Of a stretch of DNA of 64,000 nt, positions 8,980-56,599 are shown piece after piece (within the stretch, counting starts at the first letter, position 1; the number at the start of each line of letters is the position of its first letter). Position numbers and translations under genes: made by a program. Under the pieces are notes generated by a model. That model did no database searches and was not told the origin of the DNA. It was given only the letters and a program-made list of their open reading frames with translations. The stretch covers positions 5,580,001-5,644,000 of the forward strand of contig NZ_PEEU01000001.1 in assembly GCF_002754195.1 (NCBI RefSeq), read 5' to 3'. The DNA comes from Flavobacterium sp. 9. Lineage in GTDB: Bacteria > Bacteroidota > Bacteroidia > Flavobacteriales > Flavobacteriaceae.

Positions 8980-9678
8980 TTACATAATTTCGAAATACTT
9001 ACTTGGAACAAAACCATCTTCATTTTTTTGAATTAATTCCATTTCTATTTTGTTTGAATTATATTTTTGACCTCTATAAATCCATCTGAAAATATTAGGA
9101 TATAGACTATTGTTTACAATATCTCGTTTATCTATAATTTTTTCTTCCTTCAAATCATAGACAAAACAAAGATTAGAAAATGCCTGAATAATTTGAATTT
9201 GCGTTGGATTGATAAAATACGCCCATTCGATGTCAATATCTTCAGTAAATTTTATTCTTTTCTTTTCTAAAGTTGCCAAATCGGTTACAACCAAACTCCT
9301 TTTATTGATTGTTAAATGAAGATCCGGATAAAAAAAACTTCCCACCAATGAATCCATAACCATAGATTTATCAACTCTGTGGTACGTATCTAAATTTGTT
9401 TTTTGATAAGTAGAAATGTTTATTAAAAAAGAACCAAGACTCCAAATAAATGCAAAATTTTTAGTTGGATGTTCAATTTCAACCTTTTCATCTATGGAAC
9501 ATTGAATTCTTTTTTCTCCAAAAATCTCCTGCGTTCGGTTAAAATCATCAATCAAAACAGCATAATAAAAAATTTCCAGACCACGATTAAGTTCTTCCCA
9601 ACCCAAATATTTCACTTGTACCCTGTTGTTTAGATTTTTGATTAAACTTAAACTTTCAATTTGTTTTACTTGTATCAT
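8980..9678 (-). CDS. Hypothetical protein, 232 residues
   Basis: I do not recognise this protein. It has no signal peptide or transmembrane segment and is rich in Asn, Ile, Lys and aromatic residues, suggesting a soluble cytoplasmic protein with mixed alpha/beta content. It is the last of three minus-strand genes (10935 to 8980) of similar character, 122 bp downstream of the previous one. Small, soluble, unrelated neighbouring proteins like these often turn out to be immunity or toxin-associated proteins in Bacteroidota. No toxin gene is visible beside them, so that is only a possibility. Confidence 0.7.
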   Translation of the reverse strand: MIQVKQIESLSLIKNLNNRVQVKYLGWEELNRGLEIFYYAVLIDDFNRTQEIFGEKRIQCSIDEKVEIEHPTKNFAFIWSLGSFLINISTYQKTNLDTYHRVDKSMVMDSLVGSFFYPDLHLTINKRSLVVTDLATLEKKRIKFTEDIDIEWAYFINPTQIQIIQAFSNLCFVYDLKEEKIIDKRDIVNNSLYPNIFRWIYRGQKYNSNKIEMELIQKNEDGFVPSKYFEIM

Positions 9679-9800
9679 TTATTTATGTCAGAAGGCTTTT
9701 GTGATTATAAAATTTATTTCTAAGAAGTTGATAATCTTAGTTTTGTGGATAGTTTTTAATTAAAGAATTTCTCCATAATGCCAGTAAACATAAGGAAAAT

Positions 9801-10322
9801 CTACATTTTTAACTTTGCAATTATCTCATCTGTTAATAAAGGATTTTCCCAAAAACCTAAAACGTACGTAATATTTTCGCCAAGCGAATCTTCCCCAGCA
9901 GATCTTGGTTGATATTCGAATTCCCATCGATTAAATTCGATTCTCAAATACTCTTTATCGTCTTCTTCAATGAAAATTATATCTGCAGAACTTGTATAAA
10001 GCGGATGAATTTTTAAAACACTGGTTAAATATCCTTCATACATATCATGTTCGACAATATCGAATTTATAGGTTTCCGAAAGAAAAAGAAATTCCTCTTT
10101 AGTAAAAGATTCATTTGAATAAGGATCCGGATTTGCCCGTAAAGTTTTTACAAAAAGCTTTCTATTTTTATTGGTTGTTATATCGCTATTTTCGCCAATA
10201 AGTCTAATTAACGGACGTTTTAATTCTTGTTTGACAGAAACGATTCCTTCCTCAACAATCTTTTCAGATCCATCGCCAAATCTTTCCGTTTGAATACAAT
10301 AAAATTGGTCTATTAGTTTCAT
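9801..10322 (-). CDS. Hypothetical protein, 173 residues
   Basis: I do not recognise this protein. It is acidic and soluble, with no signal peptide. The C-terminal half has alternating hydrophobic strands and a Trp-rich stretch (FNRWEFEYQPRS...YVLGFWENPLL). It lies 22 bp downstream of the 196-residue gene and is probably co-transcribed with it. An immunity-type or other accessory protein is possible, but the sequence gives no direct proof. Confidence 0.7.
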   Translation of the reverse strand: MKLIDQFYCIQTERFGDGSEKIVEEGIVSVKQELKRPLIRLIGENSDITTNKNRKLFVKTLRANPDPYSNESFTKEEFLFLSETYKFDIVEHDMYEGYLTSVLKIHPLYTSSADIIFIEEDDKEYLRIEFNRWEFEYQPRSAGEDSLGENITYVLGFWENPLLTDEIIAKLKM

Positions 10323-10344
10323 TTATAATTGGTTTATTGCTTTT

Positions 10345-10935
10345 TTATAAAGTTTCAAGAAAAGAATATTGCTTCATAATTTCATTGTATTTTAGAGAAG
10401 GAGTTAAACCTTCTAAAAGTAGTTTTTCCTTCATTATTACAATTTCCTGAAAAACTTTTAAATCATAAAAGTGTACAATATCTTCTATAAGTTCTCTTTC
10501 GTTGATGTAAAAACTATATTCTCCACGATGTTTGAAAAAGTCAAAAAGCAGTTTTTTTTCTTCAATCGTAAATTGCGGATTATTGAAAATATATTCAAAA
10601 GGATCAACACCAATAATTCCGTTTAATACTAAAATATCAGAGTAAGATCCAGAATTTATATCCTTAAAAGAATGTTTATTAAAATCTTCACGAGGAAACA
10701 TTTTCGTCATTAACAAAGTCCAGTCTTTTAGAAGGAAATCTTTCCATATATCTGGACAAGAAAGAATTAAAGATAAAATAAATCCTTTGTCATAGTTTTT
10801 AAAACAATAAACTAAGAGATCAATCTTTTCAGTGTTGGAAAATTTAGAAAATTCATTTTCAAAACTAACTTGAAATCCTTTCAGTAAAGGTTGTGATTTA
10901 TAAAGCCTATCTGCTAATAGTATTATTTTTTCCAT
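10345..10935 (-). CDS. Hypothetical protein, 196 residues
   Basis: I do not recognise this protein. It appears mostly alpha-helical, with many Leu, Phe, Lys and Glu and no signal peptide or membrane segment. It is the first gene of a three-gene minus-strand group. A run of small helical proteins without enzymatic motifs is consistent with immunity proteins of polymorphic toxin cassettes, but no toxin is adjacent. Confidence 0.7.
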   Translation of the reverse strand: MEKIILLADRLYKSQPLLKGFQVSFENEFSKFSNTEKIDLLVYCFKNYDKGFILSLILSCPDIWKDFLLKDWTLLMTKMFPREDFNKHSFKDINSGSYSDILVLNGIIGVDPFEYIFNNPQFTIEEKKLLFDFFKHRGEYSFYINERELIEDIVHFYDLKVFQEIVIMKEKLLLEGLTPSLKYNEIMKQYSFLETL

Positions 10936-11474: not shown

Positions 11475-12257
11475 ATGAAGAATTTCAGAAATCACGCAAG
11501 AAAAATCTCAGCAGTAATGGCGTTGAGTATTTTATTTGTAAGCTGTTCGACAAATGAAGATACTGCAGCAGCAGGATCTGCGCAACAAAGTGCTGTATCA
11601 AAACAGTATTCCGGTGAAGATCTTTTTAGAGGAATCTTTTTCTCTGAAGGAGTTGTAGCTTCAAAATTATCTAATTATGGAAAGTTTGAAGATGTAAAAG
11701 GCCAATTAAATGCAGAGCAGAAAAAAGAGCTTTTAACGCTGCAAAACGAATTAATTAGCTATATATCGAAAAATGATCCGACTTATTTTTCAAAATTTCA
11801 GAAATCGATGAACAGCGGTAATCCTGTTGTAATTCGTGCTGCAATCGCAGAATCGAAAGGCACTTTAAAGCAAGCAGTTTTAAAAATCACCAATGTTAAT
11901 TTGACCGATGTGGAGAAAAAAATTAATATGGAGAAAGCCAAAGGCGTGGTTGATTTAAATAAAATAAAGGATTTAAAAACGCAGCTTGGAAATAATCCTT
12001 ATAATTCTTCAAAAGAAGTTGCTGTTTTCCCAGTTTGGGCAGTTGCTGTAGTTGTTGCGGTAGTTGTAGCAGTTGCGGTATATGCTGATGTGGTATATTG
12101 GTCTGTAATTGAGCCAGTACCTTTAGATCCTGAAGATCCAATCATAGGACCAAGACCTATAGATCCAGAGCCAATATTTGTCCCTGAAGATCCGGGTCTT
12201 AGATTGGAAAAAGAGCAATTTGTTAATTCAATAATAGAATTAAATGCTATCCAATAA
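11475..12257 (+). CDS. sdpC: SdpC-like toxin precursor (SDP family), lipoprotein-type signal
   Basis: The 260-residue protein starts with a signal ending in a lipobox (FVSC, Cys24). Residues 45-56, YSGEDLFRGIFF, closely match the hallmark of Bacillus SdpC (FSGEDYFRGLLF, from memory). A helical middle follows, then an extremely hydrophobic Val/Ala segment at about 183-209 that corresponds in position to the mature 42-residue SDP toxin. Unlike Bacillus SDP, this segment has no Cys pair. The tail (212-245) is rich in Pro, Asp and Glu. SDP toxins collapse the proton motive force of sister cells. It overlaps the sdpA-like gene by 14 bp and is followed by SdpB, supporting the assignment. Confidence 0.78.
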   Translation: MKNFRNHARKISAVMALSILFVSCSTNEDTAAAGSAQQSAVSKQYSGEDLFRGIFFSEGVVASKLSNYGKFEDVKGQLNAEQKKELLTLQNELISYISKNDPTYFSKFQKSMNSGNPVVIRAAIAESKGTLKQAVLKITNVNLTDVEKKINMEKAKGVVDLNKIKDLKTQLGNNPYNSSKEVAVFPVWAVAVVVAVVVAVAVYADVVYWSVIEPVPLDPEDPIIGPRPIDPEPIFVPEDPGLRLEKEQFVNSIIELNAIQ

Positions 12258-12788
12258 AAAGAAAATCTTTATTCTTTTTAACCTTATTGGGTGGTTGTTT
12301 TTGGGCATTATCTTCTTTTATGGAGTAATGCCCGAAACTCCCATACATGTGGATAAAAATCTAAAGAAACAGATCACGATTATATTTCCTAACCGATGGA
12401 TTTTTTTTACCAAAGATCCCACGGAAGATTATCTCTATATTCTAAAAAAAACGCCTAAAGGATATGTTTTTCATGAGAATTTTCCAAACTCATCTGTATC
12501 AAACTATTTTGGAATATAAGCTATCAGAAGGCTTTAGGTCTTGAATATGGAATCATTGCCAATCAGATTGATGATAATTTATGGAGTGAAAACAATACCG
12601 GAAAAAGCTTATTTAATTTTGTAAATAAGGATAATATTAAAGTTTTGGAATTAAATAGAACAAAAGAAATGACAACATTAATTGGAGAATTTTTATTCAT
12701 TAAGATTGAGCCGGTTCCTTATTTGTGGAGAAATAAGATTCGTCCTTTTGAAATGCCTTCCAAATTTGTCAAAATTAAAATTAAGTAA
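12244..12788 (+). pseudogene. sdpA: SdpA-like maturation protein, interrupted by a frameshift
   Basis: The first frame (12244-12519, 91 residues) has one N-terminal membrane segment (FILFNLIGWLFLGIIFFYGV) and a domain with PNRWIFFTKDP. It stops at TAA 12517-12519. The remaining coding sequence continues in another frame to TAA 12786-12788, encoding SYQKALGLEYGII... and IEPVPYLWRNK. Removing two bases from the ATATA at about 12512-12516 joins NYFGI directly to SYQKALGLEYG, giving a ~181-residue product of SdpA-like shape. Bacillus SdpA with SdpB is needed to mature the SDP toxin, so the break would silence toxin production unless it is a sequencing error or phase-variable. Confidence 0.72.
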
Positions 12789-12790
12789 AC

Positions 12791-13696
12791 ATGAATAATT
12801 TTTTCTTAAATATCTATCATAAATCACAGGGAATTAATTATCATACAAATACATTAGGATTGGTAAGAAGCCTTCTTGCGTTTTCAACCTTGATTATATT
12901 ACTGGTAAATCCGGCGAGTCTTATTTTTCATACCGGACTTGGCGTTCCACAGATACCATACTGCAGCGATAGTTTCTTATCTAGAATTAACTTGTTTTGT
13001 GTTTTTTCAGAGCATCTGGTTTTCGGGCGAATTTTAGCCATAGTAATTTTACTGGCAACAATTTCCGGTTTTTTTCCAAAAATTACTGCACCATTGCATT
13101 GGTGGGTAACTTTTAGTGTCAATGCGGGTTTGGTAATCGTAGACGGAGGTTGTCAGGTAGCAGCAGTTTTAACCTTTATGATTATTCCGCTTGTGTTTAC
13201 AGATAATCGAACAAATCATTGGAGTATTTCTAAAAAGCATACAAATGAATACGCAAATATTACAGCTTATTTGGCTCTGCAAGCTTTAAAATTACAAGTT
13301 GCTTTTATTTACCTTGATTCGGCAATGTCTAAATTATCTGCACCTTGGTGGACGCAGGGAACGGCGCTGTATTATTTTATAAATGATCCAATTATTGGAG
13401 CCACTGGAATCAGACTTGAACTGTTTAATATGATTTTTAATTTTCCGGTTCTTTTAGTGTTTTTTACCTATTTTGTTATCCTGTTAGAATTTGCATTAGG
13501 ATTAAGTCCGTTGTATGCCAATAAAAAAAAGAAATCTATTCTTTTTAAACTCGGAATACTTTTTCATATATTGATTTTTCTTACATTTGGCATATTCACA
13601 TTTGTAGTAACCATGTTTGCAGCTCTAATTATTTTATTTCTGCCAATGGAAAATAATATCCGTCTTAATTTTAGAAAAAACGATGAACGAAAATAA
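12791..13696 (+). CDS. sdpB: SdpB-family multi-pass membrane protein
   Basis: The 301-residue integral membrane protein has about seven hydrophobic segments (for example LLAFSTLIILLVNP, LAIVILLATISGFF, ILIFLTFGIFTFVVTMFAALIIL). It shows the SdpB/HTTM-like pattern: an N-terminal YHTNTLGLVRSLLA, a central LQVAFIYLDSAMSKL, and W(W)TQGTALYYF. In Bacillus, SdpB together with SdpA processes or exports the SDP toxin. The gene starts 2 bp after the sdpA-like stop and overlaps the next gene by 14 bp, so the four genes form one tight operon in the order C-A-B-X rather than the Bacillus order A-B-C. Confidence 0.8.
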   Translation: MNNFFLNIYHKSQGINYHTNTLGLVRSLLAFSTLIILLVNPASLIFHTGLGVPQIPYCSDSFLSRINLFCVFSEHLVFGRILAIVILLATISGFFPKITAPLHWWVTFSVNAGLVIVDGGCQVAAVLTFMIIPLVFTDNRTNHWSISKKHTNEYANITAYLALQALKLQVAFIYLDSAMSKLSAPWWTQGTALYYFINDPIIGATGIRLELFNMIFNFPVLLVFFTYFVILLEFALGLSPLYANKKKKSILFKLGILFHILIFLTFGIFTFVVTMFAALIILFLPMENNIRLNFRKNDERK

Positions 13697-14147
13697 TATC
13701 CTTTACAAAAAAGTACAGTTTGCTTACTGGATTTTGGTGATCTTTTTAGTCGCAGGTTTAATGATTGGTTTGGTTGGTAAAAACGGTACATATTCAATTG
13801 CACCATTAATTATTCTGGTTATTGTCTTTTTCTTTTTTCATAAATTGACAATTGTAATAGATAATGATAAAATCGCCGCATATTTTGGATTTAATTTTTT
13901 CAGAAGAGAAATGACTTTTGAAGAAATAGATCCCGAAACCATTGAATCAGTTAAAATAAACTGGCTTACCGGAATTGGTATCAGAATCACAGGAAAAGGG
14001 ACTCTTTATAACGTAAAATACGGCAAAGCAATTCATATAAAATCAAAAAACAAATCTAAAACTTTCTATGTAGGAACAGACGATTTTGAAGAAATCAGAA
14101 AAATTTTGATAGAGCAAATTCAAAAAAATAAACAGGATAATTTATAA
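13683..14147 (+). CDS. Small membrane protein with PH-like domain; candidate SDP immunity protein
   Basis: The 154-residue protein has two adjacent transmembrane segments near residues 13-53 (YWILVIFLVAGLMIGLV and IAPLIILVIVFFFF). A soluble beta-rich domain follows, with VIDNDKIAAYFGFNFFRREMTFEEIDPETI and KTFYVGTDDFEEIRKIL, resembling small bacterial PH-like membrane proteins. It overlaps sdpB by 14 bp and ends the operon before a strong terminator. Toxin operons usually encode immunity, and nothing here resembles Bacillus SdpI, so this protein is the natural candidate. That is inference from position and topology only. Confidence 0.75.
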   Translation: MNENNILYKKVQFAYWILVIFLVAGLMIGLVGKNGTYSIAPLIILVIVFFFFHKLTIVIDNDKIAAYFGFNFFRREMTFEEIDPETIESVKINWLTGIGIRITGKGTLYNVKYGKAIHIKSKNKSKTFYVGTDDFEEIRKILIEQIQKNKQDNL

Positions 14148-14194
14148 AGTACCATTTAAATATTTTGGTATAGATTTCTTTAGTCCTATCACAT

Positions 14195-14235
14195 AAAAAA
14201 ACACTCAGTACAAATTTTGCACTGAGTGTTTTTTT
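14195..14235. terminator. Bidirectional terminator between the SDP-like operon and fabH
   Basis: AAAAAAACACTCAGT (14195-14209) pairs perfectly with ACTGAGTGTTTTTTT (14221-14235). The A and T runs make it work in both directions, serving the converging operon and fabH. Confidence 0.88.
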
Positions 14236-14266
14236 ATAAAACCTAAATATTAGACTTTAGTATAAA

Positions 14267-15250
14267 TTACCATTTGATGTACATACTTCCCCAAGAGAAT
14301 CCTGCACCAAAAGCAGTTACGATGATATTATCACCTTTTTTGAAATCATTTTTAAAATCCCAAAGACATAAAGGAATCGTCGCTGCGGTAGTATTTCCGT
14401 ATTTCTGAATGTTTATTTTAAACTTTTCAATACCAATACCAATATCCTCACTTACCGCCTGAATAATTCTCAGGTTTGCCTGATGTGGTATAACCCAGTC
14501 AACCATTTCAGGAGTTAAGGAAGCTTTTTCCATTAATTCCTTAGAAGTTCCACTCATGTTTTTTACAGCTTGTTTGAAAACAGTTCTTCCTTCTTGTTGT
14601 ACAAAATGCTGTTTGTTATGAATCGTTTCTTCAGAAGTCGAAAGTAGAGAACCTCCGGCACGAACCGTAAGATATTCAGCTCCTGTTCCGTCAGTTCTAA
14701 AAATGTTTTGTTGTATTCCTCGTCCTTCAGTATTTGGCTGTAAAAGTACTGCTCCGGCACCGTCACCAAAAAGAATACAGCTATTTCTGTCTTCATAATT
14801 AACGATAGAACTCATTTTGTCAGCGCCAATAACGATAACATTTTTATATCTGCCGCTTTCAACGAAACTTGCACCAACAGAAAGTGCGTACAAGAAACCG
14901 CTGCAAGCAGAGTTAAGGTCAAATCCCCAGGCATTTTTCAAGCCCGCTTTTTCGCATACCAAACTGGCTGCAGGAGTTAAAATACGATCTGGTGTAGAGG
15001 TTGCCAAAATAAGACAATCAATATCAAGCGGATCTATTGCGTAGTTTTCAATTAAATCTTTAACTGCAAAAGAAGCCATATCTGAGGTTGCCAAAGCAGG
15101 ATCATCAAGTATTCTTCTTTCTTTTATACCCGTGCGTGAAGTAATCCACTCATCTGAGGTATCTACCATTTTTTCTAAATCAGTATTGCTTAAAACCGTT
15201 TCCGGTACATATCCCCCAATAGCAATAATGGAAGCGTTAAGTGTATTCAT
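14267..15250 (-). CDS. fabH: 3-oxoacyl-[acyl-carrier-protein] synthase III (FabH)
   Basis: This 327-residue thiolase-fold enzyme condenses acetyl-CoA (or a branched acyl-CoA) with malonyl-ACP to start fatty acid synthesis in the cytoplasm. The catalytic triad is intact: Cys116 (NSACSGFLYAL), His256 (WVIPHQANLR) and Asn286 (KYGNTTAATIP). The ends MNTLNASIIAIGGYVPE and FGAGFSWGSMYIKW are typical. It stands alone; Flavobacteria often carry more than one FabH, so this could be the housekeeping or an additional copy. A candidate -7 element at 15505-15512 implies a leader of about 245 nt that includes an 8-bp stem-loop at 15294-15315. Confidence 0.95.
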   Translation of the reverse strand: MNTLNASIIAIGGYVPETVLSNTDLEKMVDTSDEWITSRTGIKERRILDDPALATSDMASFAVKDLIENYAIDPLDIDCLILATSTPDRILTPAASLVCEKAGLKNAWGFDLNSACSGFLYALSVGASFVESGRYKNVIVIGADKMSSIVNYEDRNSCILFGDGAGAVLLQPNTEGRGIQQNIFRTDGTGAEYLTVRAGGSLLSTSEETIHNKQHFVQQEGRTVFKQAVKNMSGTSKELMEKASLTPEMVDWVIPHQANLRIIQAVSEDIGIGIEKFKINIQKYGNTTAATIPLCLWDFKNDFKKGDNIIVTAFGAGFSWGSMYIKW

Positions 15251-53960: not shown

Positions 53961-56519
53961 TTATTGGCATGAAGTACTAAAAATCACACCAGAATCTTTG
54001 AACCATCTCGAAGAAGGAAAATCCACTTTATCAACCTGAATGCATTTGAGATTTTCATTTTTAAGAGCAGAAACATAGGATATTGTGCTATTATTTCCGT
54101 TTTTGAGATTAAGAGAAGTCAATTCATTCGAAGAACAAATTAAATCAAGTAATGCTGTGTTATTGGATAAATCGAGGGTTTTCAATTTGTTTTTTTCGCA
54201 TGAAACTCTGGTTAATTGCAGATTGTGAGACAGCTCTAAATTTTCCAGTTTATTTTGCTGACAACGAAATTCTTGCAAAGCTGTATTTTTAGTGATATCC
54301 AAAGTCTTCAATAAATTAGAGTGGCATTCAAGATACATTAAAAGAGTATTTTGACTTGGATTCAAATTAGTCAGTTTATTTGAACTACAATTAAAATACC
54401 ACAAAACGGTGTTTTTAGACACATCCAAAGTCGTTATTTGATTCGATGCGCAGCTAAAATTACGTAGTATTGTATTTGAACTTACATTAAGTTCTTTTAA
54501 TTTATTCTCATTGCAATACAGCGTGCTCAGGTTTTTATTTTTAGAAATATCCAGATTTGTCAATTGATTATCGGCACACTCAAGTTTTTCTAATTTTGGG
54601 TTCAGACTTATGTCTAAAACAGTTAAGAGATTATGACTGCAAAATAACTCATCTAAAATTACATTTTTAGATAAATCCAAAGTTGTCAATTTATTGTCAT
54701 TACATCGTAAAATTGTCAAAGCAGTGTTTTTGGAAATATTTAAATTCTCCATTTTATTAGACTGACAATCAATGTAATCCAAACGCACATTTTTAGACAA
54801 ATCCAGGTTTGTTATTTGATTTGCATAGCAGCCCAATTCGATTAAAGAAGTGTTTTTACTAACGTCTAGCTCCGTTAATAAGGCATTGTCACAATATAAA
54901 GTAGTAAGTGCTTTGTTTTTAGATAATTTCAAAGATTTCAAATCGTTGTAACCACAGCTCAAATTTAGTAAAGCTTTATTTTGGCTAACATCTAAAGAAG
55001 TCATATGATTATTTTCGCAATTTAAAAAAGTAAGTGCTTTATTGTGAGAAACATCTAAATCGATACTATTCACTTCACAATTTAATTCTTTTAAAGCCTT
55101 ATTTGTAGAAATATCCAAAGTAGTAAGCCAATTTTCCTGACAGTAAAGCGCAGTCAGATTTTTATTATTGCTTACAGTTAAGTAGCTCATTTGGTTTTTA
55201 GTACAAGTAAGTTTTGTCAAGGCTTTACATTCGGTAATATCAAGATTTTCAATTTGATTTTTAGAGCAATCCAACGTTTTTAAAGCGATAAAAGCTTCCA
55301 AACCTTTTAAGTCTTTGATTTGGCTATTCGAAACATCCAAATCTGTAATAGTGGCAATATTTGCGGTAAAGACTCTTCCGTCCGGTTCACCAGAATCATA
55401 TTTCAGTGCAATTAAAGCTTTCTCAAAATTAACATCAGGAATCACCGTATATCCAGGTTCGAGTTCTATACATATTATTTTGCATTTTGAAAAATCAGAC
55501 ATACCACTCCCATCATAAGGTTTACCATCAAAATCTGCACTAATACATTTTAGATCAGGATTCTCTTCGGCAAACATATAACTTATACGAGGACAATTCT
55601 TAATGTTCAAATCAGTTAATTGATTTGCGGAACAATCAAAACCTTTTAGAGAAAGACTGTTTGATAAATCCAATATTTTTAACTGATTCCCTCGACATCC
55701 CAAATCTATCAAAGCTTTGTTTGGACTAAGATCCAATTCAGTCAATTGATTGTTGAAACAGTTTATATAAGTAAGGATATTATTTTTTGAAAAACTTATA
55801 GAGGTTAACTTATTTTCATAACATTCTAAAGAAGCCAGATTAATGTTCTGAGTTAAATTCAATTGAGTTAATTTATTATCTTGACATTCTAAAGTAGTTA
55901 AATTTTTATTTTGGCTTAAATCCAGCGAAGTCAGTTCATTATTAAAACACTGCAAATATTGTAAAGCAATATTCTGATGCAAATTCAAAGAAGTTAACTG
56001 ATTTTGAAAACAAAATAATTCTATTAAAAGACTGTTTTTACTTACGTCTAAAGTTTCTAATTTGTTGCTGGAGCAAAATAACTCACTTAGCTTTGTATTC
56101 TGTGTTACATCTAATGCTGTTAATAAATTATTGTAACAACGTAAATAAATTAGGGCTGTATTTTGGGTTATATTTAATGATTTCAGCCTGTTATCAAAAC
56201 AATCTAAATTAGTCAAAGCGGTGTTTTTGCTAAGATCGAGCCTCGTTAATTTATTTCCGCCACAGAACAATTCAGTTAATGACTCAAAATCTTGTATGCC
56301 AGTTAAATCTGAGATGTTTTTTTTCGAAATATCCAATCTTTTTACATTGACAATAGTAGCAGTCAATACTTTTCCGTCAGGTTTACCAGAATCATATCCC
56401 AGATCGATTATACATTTTTCGAAATTAGAGTCGCGGATTAAAGTATATCCGGTTTTGGCTTGCGAAAACAAATTATTTGACGCGCAACAAAGCAAAATAA
56501 CAAATAGTATTCTTTTCAT
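53961..56519 (-). CDS. Secreted leucine-rich-repeat protein with Cys ladder, two modules
   Basis: I choose ATG 56519 (852 residues, MKRILFVILLCC signal peptide); the open frame extends 17 codons upstream, but its ATG at 56570 overlaps a promoter-like -7 element. The body is about 30 repeats of roughly 21 residues with the pattern LxxLxCxxNxLxxLDLSxNxxL, in which a Cys takes a Leu position. Two modules are visible: each opens with a GYT-I-D-NFE header containing YDSGxPDGxV and closes with an LKCI trailer. The first has about 11 repeats, the second about 19. No T9SS sorting domain is present. Such solenoids usually bind proteins or surfaces; the function is unknown. Confidence 0.9.
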   Translation of the reverse strand: MKRILFVILLCCASNNLFSQAKTGYTLIRDSNFEKCIIDLGYDSGKPDGKVLTATIVNVKRLDISKKNISDLTGIQDFESLTELFCGGNKLTRLDLSKNTALTNLDCFDNRLKSLNITQNTALIYLRCYNNLLTALDVTQNTKLSELFCSSNKLETLDVSKNSLLIELFCFQNQLTSLNLHQNIALQYLQCFNNELTSLDLSQNKNLTTLECQDNKLTQLNLTQNINLASLECYENKLTSISFSKNNILTYINCFNNQLTELDLSPNKALIDLGCRGNQLKILDLSNSLSLKGFDCSANQLTDLNIKNCPRISYMFAEENPDLKCISADFDGKPYDGSGMSDFSKCKIICIELEPGYTVIPDVNFEKALIALKYDSGEPDGRVFTANIATITDLDVSNSQIKDLKGLEAFIALKTLDCSKNQIENLDITECKALTKLTCTKNQMSYLTVSNNKNLTALYCQENWLTTLDISTNKALKELNCEVNSIDLDVSHNKALTFLNCENNHMTSLDVSQNKALLNLSCGYNDLKSLKLSKNKALTTLYCDNALLTELDVSKNTSLIELGCYANQITNLDLSKNVRLDYIDCQSNKMENLNISKNTALTILRCNDNKLTTLDLSKNVILDELFCSHNLLTVLDISLNPKLEKLECADNQLTNLDISKNKNLSTLYCNENKLKELNVSSNTILRNFSCASNQITTLDVSKNTVLWYFNCSSNKLTNLNPSQNTLLMYLECHSNLLKTLDITKNTALQEFRCQQNKLENLELSHNLQLTRVSCEKNKLKTLDLSNNTALLDLICSSNELTSLNLKNGNNSTISYVSALKNENLKCIQVDKVDFPSSRWFKDSGVIFSTSCQ

Positions 56520-56563
56520 AAATGTCTCTTTTATACCAATGGGAATTACCGAATATGATTTTT

Positions 56564-56571
56564 CAAACATA
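56564..56571 (-). promoter_or_regulatory. Candidate -7 element for the leucine-rich-repeat gene
   Basis: On the minus strand it reads TATGTTTG, an exact TAnnTTTG match, 45 bp before ATG 56519. No good -33 box was seen. Confidence 0.4.
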
Positions 56572-56599
56572 AACAGATATAATAATTTTTGATGCTAAT

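Follow-up and report, generated by a model that had tools for sequence, protein, structure and literature searches.

A PH-like membrane protein as a candidate immunity protein of an SDP-type toxin operon in Flavobacterium sp. 9

The window analysed in this study is a stretch of 64,000 nucleotides from Flavobacterium sp. 9 (assembly GCF_002754195.1, contig NZ_PEEU01000001.1, positions 5,580,001 to 5,644,000 of the forward strand), part of a single-contig genome of 6.33 Mb. It carries an SDP-type toxin operon composed of sdpC, sdpA in two pieces, sdpB and a fourth gene, which we call X and which encodes a small membrane protein. SdpI is a known immunity protein. Judging from genomic context, we consider it somewhat probable that X replaces SdpI as the immunity protein of this operon. 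A family that alternates with SdpI in the slot beside the sdp core genes, and that is paired with SdpI elsewhere, would most simply be another self-protection protein.

According to profile searches, the SDP-type operon is real and has one broken part, sdpA (Table 1). The score of SdpB exceeds the curated cut-off of TIGR04033 (178.4 bits). The match of SdpC covers positions 4-152 of the 172 in TIGR04032 and is clear, although its score lies below the curated cut-off of 99.2 bits; by this match, the window SdpC is a divergent member of the SdpC family, and it contains the expected hydrophobic segment. The initial annotation, made from the letters alone, had named both genes correctly. The genes form one plus-strand unit between minus-strand neighbours. 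As calculated from their coordinates, sdpC and sdpA overlap by 14 nucleotides, as do sdpB and X, and 2 nucleotides separate the second sdpA piece from sdpB, which agrees with the earlier description of genes that overlap or nearly touch. The strong terminator described after the operon is present as a hairpin whose fold was matched by none of 200 shuffled sequences (z -8.0) and which was not among the terminators listed by a simple consensus scan.

Hydropathy supports the two membrane helices initially described in X, and the C-terminal domain appears PH-like in profile-profile comparison. When profile A3, which was built from ten X-type proteins, was compared by hhalign with four slot proteins carrying curated bPH_4 or bPH_5 matches, the probability was 88% (E-value 3.1e-6, 111 columns), and with profile A2 in place of A3 it was 67%. 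All 44 X-type proteins that were aligned share the two glycines and the arginine of the GxGxR motif. X was rejected as an SdpI homologue, in agreement with the earlier statement that it is not SdpI-like, as neither of the SdpI-family models PF13630 and PF07853 (DUF1648) matches it; these models also have no match in the whole genome at an E-value of 0.001. Membership of a Pfam, NCBIfam, PADLOC or PDB-linked family was likewise rejected, with no match at cut-off. The weak Pfam match to DUF7823 (E-value 0.0018) is below the cut-off, and the best PDB sequence match, a TATA-binding protein (E-value 0.15), was taken as chance. DUF6141 (PF19638) does not match the window X; it matches an X-type protein of Sediminibacillus above the cut-off (E-value 9.9e-14) and 9 of the 44 X-type proteins at an E-value of 0.01.

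To describe the slot beside the core genes, we used 80 SdpB loci of named genomes (the best 80 of 174, a sample that leans to relatives of the window SdpB) and 20 fetched loci; here, loci are labelled L and genomes G. One locus with no SdpB frame (L077) and 13 loci with an SdpB more than 90% identical to another were dropped and the window was excluded, which left 86 non-redundant loci. A slot gene was defined as a gene next to the core on the same strand, with gaps below 200 nucleotides. The slot held a PH-type gene at 15 loci, an SdpI/DUF1648 gene at 18, both at 0 and neither at 53. Three loci were counted as having neither: L096 of Sediminibacillus, with the arrangement A-B-C-X, in which an X-type gene follows sdpC at a gap of more than 200 nucleotides; L042, with X on the other strand; and L074, with an SdpI-type gene on the other strand. 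The PH-type slot genes belong to Bacteroidota (11), Actinomycetota (2), Deinococcota (1) and Bacillota (1). Within Bacteroidota (n=51), the slot was PH-type at 11 loci, SdpI/DUF1648 at 16 and neither at 24. The probability that the two types would never overlap is 0.009 for Bacteroidota and 0.02 for all loci, if loci are treated as independent, which is only partly true. Among 649 background open frames at the surveyed loci, 6 PH-type and 3 SdpI-type matches were found. Curated Pfam matches above the cut-off occur in several slot proteins: bPH_5 in those of Calidithermus, Longimycelium, Owenweeksia and G142, and bPH_4 in that of Paenibacillus.

The family was surveyed in 299 genomes with X profile A2, which includes three rows from sdp loci (the window, L003 and L014). 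The SdpB loci were those with an E-value below 1e-20 (n=8); of 15 genomes, seven weaker ones (E-values of 1e-4 to 1e-10) were dropped. The X profile found 118 places in 105 genomes. At 4 of the 8 sdpB loci, or 3 of 7 if the window is left aside, an X gene was located at most 3 kb from sdpB, compared with 0.016 expected; it lies 3′ of sdpB in G000 and G271 and 5′ of sdpC in G296 and G348. SdpI (PF13630) was found at 109 places in 96 of the 299 genomes, including 2 of the 8 sdpB loci, and X lies near SdpI in 4 places compared with 0.05 expected. The X and SdpI families are therefore alike in being mostly outside sdp loci and strongly enriched at them. The initial annotation had stated that its immunity proposal would fail if homologues of the fourth gene were found mostly outside sdp operons. 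That is literally the case (114 of 118 places), but the observation does not discriminate because 107 of the 109 SdpI places are also elsewhere. Within the genus (121 genomes, single-sequence searches), X-type proteins occur in 7 genomes and SdpB in 8, and they share a locus in two genomes, that of the window and G111. In G105, a more distant X-type protein beside sdpB was noticed on reading the locus and then by profile.

Outside sdp loci, X was repeatedly found with SdpI. Measured by tree path, the five proteins closest to the window X are those of loci L214, L195, L196, L212 and L197, with identities of 43%, 42%, 41% and 47% for L214, L195, L196 and L197, respectively. At L195, L196 and L197, X adjoins an SdpI-type gene and the stretches read contain no sdp genes; by eye, these runs include kinase-like and response-regulator-like genes, and two include a hydrolase-like gene. 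At five places in four genomes of the genus, X stands in a run with SdpI next to hydrolase-like genes, together with DUF3784 in three of them. X also lies beside a DUF1648-type gene at loci L209 and L225 (genomes G226 and G178).

The wide occurrence of the family suggests another explanation, namely that X acts generally in envelope stress or membrane remodelling and confers unspecific tolerance, useful with any membrane-active agent, rather than cognate immunity. X-type proteins are present in more than a third of the family genomes (105 of 299) with neighbours that are mostly other than sdp, and YdbS of Bacillus subtilis has the build of two helices and a PH domain that is also predicted for X, its partner YdbT being annotated for antibiotic resistance without experimental proof according to PMC8657885. 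We consider this explanation unlikely. X is co-directional with and overlaps the operon, and its recurrence at sdp loci is far above expectation. In a tree of 44 proteins, the window X also groups with two other sdp-located X proteins and one orphan (support 99/84), although the group around X lacks strong support in a tree of 128 proteins. Location at sdp loci requires 5 changes for 12 rows on the smaller tree, of which 2 are forced by well-supported branches, and 10 changes for 13 rows on the larger tree, of which 1 is forced. Repeated recruitment of X to sdp loci is thus suggested by the trees, with a single origin still conceivable.

Several observations weigh against X as an immunity protein. 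No bPH model of Pfam matches the window X at E-values up to 1, and the X of G111 matches bPH_5 only at an E-value of 0.025; accordingly, the PH-like domain claimed initially stands in the profile-profile comparison but not in a match of X itself. The slot gene is not obligatory, as 53 of the 86 loci have neither type. The profiles used for the slot counts were partly seeded with slot proteins, and the SdpI-type slot calls come from purpose-built profiles of which only some members were checked against Pfam. Therefore, the family co-location survey and the curated Pfam matches constitute the cleanest evidence. One of the 15 PH-type slot proteins, a protein of 321 residues beside sdpB in Cryobacterium (L044), combines an X-type C-terminus with a weak N-terminal match to DUF1648 (E-value 0.011), and such a DUF1648-like part would blur the clean alternation. 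The nearest relative by tree path (L214), as well as L212, has neither sdp nor SdpI genes adjacent, as is the case for 5 of the 11 rows grouped around X (SH-aLRT 81). Finally, the 114 places outside sdp loci imply a wider role for the family.

A further objection arises from the PH proteins DdE and DdF, for which a role in export has been reported (PMC8657885, PMC9865063, PMC13262744). Because of this precedent, the main rival explanation is that X is an export or maturation helper that carries the peptide derived from SdpC through the inner membrane, the kind of role reported for DdE and DdF with enterocin DD14. DdE is described as a 141-residue protein in which two membrane helices are combined with a single PH domain (PMC8657885), mutants without DdE or DdF are reported to retain the bacteriocin in the cell (PMC9865063), and the X gene overlaps sdpB, which is a maturation gene. 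However, active toxin is reported when sdpABC of B. subtilis is expressed in a background deleted from sdpA to sdpR (PMC6818787), and where X-type genes adjoin SdpI-type genes and sdp genes are lacking, there would be no SDP toxin to export. In addition, PH-type genes alternate in the slot with SdpI, an immunity protein. We therefore regard a role in export as rather unlikely.

The same proteins offer a precedent on the other side. The discussion of PMC11580447, citing an export paper, states a role in both immunity and transport for the PH proteins of leaderless bacteriocins, and this group is thus a precedent for two-helix PH proteins that serve membrane-active bacteriocins. X shares with the YdbS/DdE-type membrane proteins a length of about 140-160 residues and appears to resemble them in the succession of two helices and one PH domain, and the gene of DdE accompanies that of a membrane-active peptide (PMC8657885). 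Unlike these proteins, X has no match to bPH_2, bPH_4 or bPH_5, and the toxin associated with DdE, whose reported role is export, is unrelated to SDP. A precedent for immunity to SDP-type toxins by a protein other than SdpI is YitQ, which is described as the anti-toxin protein of the paralogous YIT toxin and as having no similarity to SdpI (PMC6818787). In both yitPOM-yitQ of B. subtilis and the window, an SDP-type toxin is accompanied by a non-SdpI membrane protein, with immunity ascribed to YitQ and X being a candidate. The likeness is one of genetic setting, and yitQ lies upstream in a separate operon whereas X lies inside the sdp operon. According to PMC6818787, the sdpABC homologues numbered 2 and 4, from other strains of B. 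subtilis, are followed downstream by membrane-protein genes without names.

If X is indeed the immunity protein, the following scheme can be envisaged. The operon would follow the Bacteroidota arrangement sdpC-sdpA-sdpB, with the fourth gene serving the self-protection of the producer. SdpC would be exported as a lipoprotein-type precursor, and its maturation by SdpA and SdpB would yield a short, hydrophobic peptide that damages the membranes of neighbouring cells. X would sit in the inner membrane by its two helices, with the PH-like domain on the cytoplasmic side, and, perhaps acting as an oligomer, would prevent the peptide from entering the membrane of the producer itself or taking effect there. 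The initial proposal of a non-SdpI immunity candidate is strengthened by the recurrence of PH-type genes in the slot, by the lack of any slot shared with SdpI and by the X-SdpI pairs elsewhere, but X is still a candidate. The lack of an SdpI or DUF1648 match in the genome, and the open X frame of G111 among degraded sdp genes, also speak for this role.

More broadly, and with somewhat less than even confidence, we propose that SDP immunity has a second general class of proteins, the PH-type membrane proteins, most of which have two helices. Across four or more phyla, members of this class and SdpI would be interchangeable at one position of the operon, and recruitment of the class would have happened more than once. 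Outside sdp loci, they would be paired with SdpI in toxin-free resistance modules, and the Cryobacterium protein beside sdpB would represent a fusion of a weak DUF1648-like part (E-value 0.011) to an X-type part. SDP-type operons are spread over many phyla, and the immunity proteins named in the literature covered are SdpI and YitQ of Bacillus. An SdpI-type slot gene is absent from 68 of the 86 surveyed loci, and a PH-type class, if true, would fill part of this gap, link the SDP toxins with the PH proteins of the leaderless bacteriocin group and provide a simple protection assay. A search of titles and abstract openings in the open-access literature, with subscription papers and preprints outside its range, found no paper on a PH-type protein at an SDP operon.

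The state of sdpA raises the question of whether the operon is active. The initial annotation described an SdpA-like protein; the family assignment holds, but the gene is not one open frame, and its split had been overlooked. Both pieces score below the TIGR04034 cut-off of 53.1, and together they cover positions 3-157 except two. No start codon occurs within 60 nucleotides of the junction. Thus, by its profile coverage, SdpA is nearly complete in content and is split by a frame change. The window was scanned for same-strand overlapping open frames of at least 70 codons with no start within 60 nucleotides of the junction, and two places were found, sdpA and 56590. The latter was rejected as a second frameshift, being antisense to a large open frame. 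A codon-score frameshift scan of the window found nothing, not even the sdpA split, and the first sdpA piece scored near zero. Since the split of sdpA stands alone in the window, an assembly full of errors is unlikely, and the split stems from either a mutation of recent origin or one isolated assembly error. With the frameshift in sdpA, as assembled, maturation of the toxin in this strain is improbable and an active toxin doubtful. X may persist here, if anything, as a guard against kin that still make the toxin.

A harsher explanation is that the operon is dead or dying, a remnant with a frameshifted sdpA and decay in the rest, in which X has no current role. Decay is seen at other sdp loci as well as in the split sdpA: in G111, only remnants of sdpC and sdpB and no sdpA were found, with X an open frame of 156 residues, and in G105, sdpC is interrupted. 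However, sdpC, sdpB and X of the window are open at full length, the sdpA pieces retain nearly all profile positions, and the split itself may be an assembly error. Moreover, remnant status here would have no bearing on the role of X in intact operons. We consider this explanation improbable. Open slot genes beside damaged sdp genes were found for X-type genes in the window, G111 and G105 and for SdpI-type genes in G301 and at the second locus of G066. These cases, collected in this one direction, are given as examples only, and the idea that slot genes persist longer than toxin genes was set aside. At the second locus of G066 (L017-L019), the decayed sdpB, fragmented and interrupted by stops, adjoins an SdpI-like gene that is open.

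The window shares the SdpC, SdpA and SdpB families and a small membrane protein encoded at the operon with sdpABC-sdpIR of B. subtilis. It differs in the order C-A-B, the predicted lipobox of SdpC, the cysteine-free hydrophobic segment, the genome without PF13630 or PF07853 matches and the lack of a regulator family match in the four flanking genes scanned. The order does depart from the A-B-C of Bacillus, as initially stated, but it was rejected as a novelty, C-A-B being usual outside Bacillota. In the non-redundant set, C-A-B was found at 42 of 51 Bacteroidota loci; at 8 of the remaining 9, one or two core genes were undetected in place, and at 1, an SdpB-type gene replaces sdpC. All 9 Bacillota loci have the order A-B-C, one with sdpB in two frames.

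The sole cysteine of the window SdpC is Cys24, at the end of the signal sequence, and a toxin role of the hydrophobic segment is presumed by analogy with SdpC of B. subtilis. Among SdpC proteins of at least 150 residues, a lipobox was predicted in 31 of 43 from Bacteroidota, 4 of 4 from Myxococcota, 0 of 14 from Actinomycetota and 0 of 9 from Bacillota, by a rule fixed only after a first look at the SdpC sequences. This distribution fits a predicted lipoprotein form of the SdpC precursor in diderms, and the lipoprotein-like SdpC of Bacteroidota could mean a different processing route in such bacteria.

Table 1. Features of the SDP-type operon and its nearest neighbours in the window
Feature	Position	Strand	Basis
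Left neighbour gene, nearest	10345-10935	minus	
sdpC, SDP-type toxin precursor, 260 residues	11475-12257	+	TIGR04032, E 1.2e-20, 74.1 bits
SdpC Cys24, predicted lipobox FVSC at signal-sequence end	11544-11546	+	sequence rule
SdpC hydrophobic segment, residues 182-200, presumed toxin region	12018-12074	+	hydropathy
sdpA first piece, 91 residues, early stop	12244-12519	+	TIGR04034 positions 3-68, E 4e-9
sdpA second piece, other frame	~12522-12788	+	TIGR04034 positions 71-157, E 1.5e-6
sdpB, SDP maturation membrane protein, 301 residues	12791-13696	+	TIGR04033, E 8.6e-61, 206 bits
X, 154 residues, two membrane helices and C-terminal PH-like domain, candidate immunity protein	13683-14147	+	
Stretch of the two predicted X helices (residues 13-31, 41-59)	13719-13859	+	hydropathy
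PH-like domain of X (about residues 60-145)	13860-14117	+	hhalign profile-profile
GxGxR motif of X (GIGIR)	13971-13985	+	alignment
Terminator hairpin closing the operon	14193-14237	+	-21.4 kcal/mol, z -8.0
Right neighbour, FabH-type gene	14267-15250	minus	

Small DCC1-like genes (thiol-disulfide oxidoreductase) were observed in or near the sdp loci L043, L054, L055, L056, L075, L076, L089 and L175, that of L056 being confirmed by Pfam; they are perhaps tied to the cysteines of many toxin segments, and none was noticed in the window operon. Locus L175 (G652) has five SdpC-type genes encoding 201-241 residues, with differing hydrophobic segments, on the strand of a single sdpA-sdpB pair. To the left of the window operon, the minus-strand region 8980-10935 encodes three proteins (232, 173 and 196 residues) with no Pfam or NCBIfam match at an E-value of 0.01. 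Elsewhere in the window, positions 53961-56594 of the minus strand hold an open frame of 877 residues composed of repeated leucine-rich-looking units.

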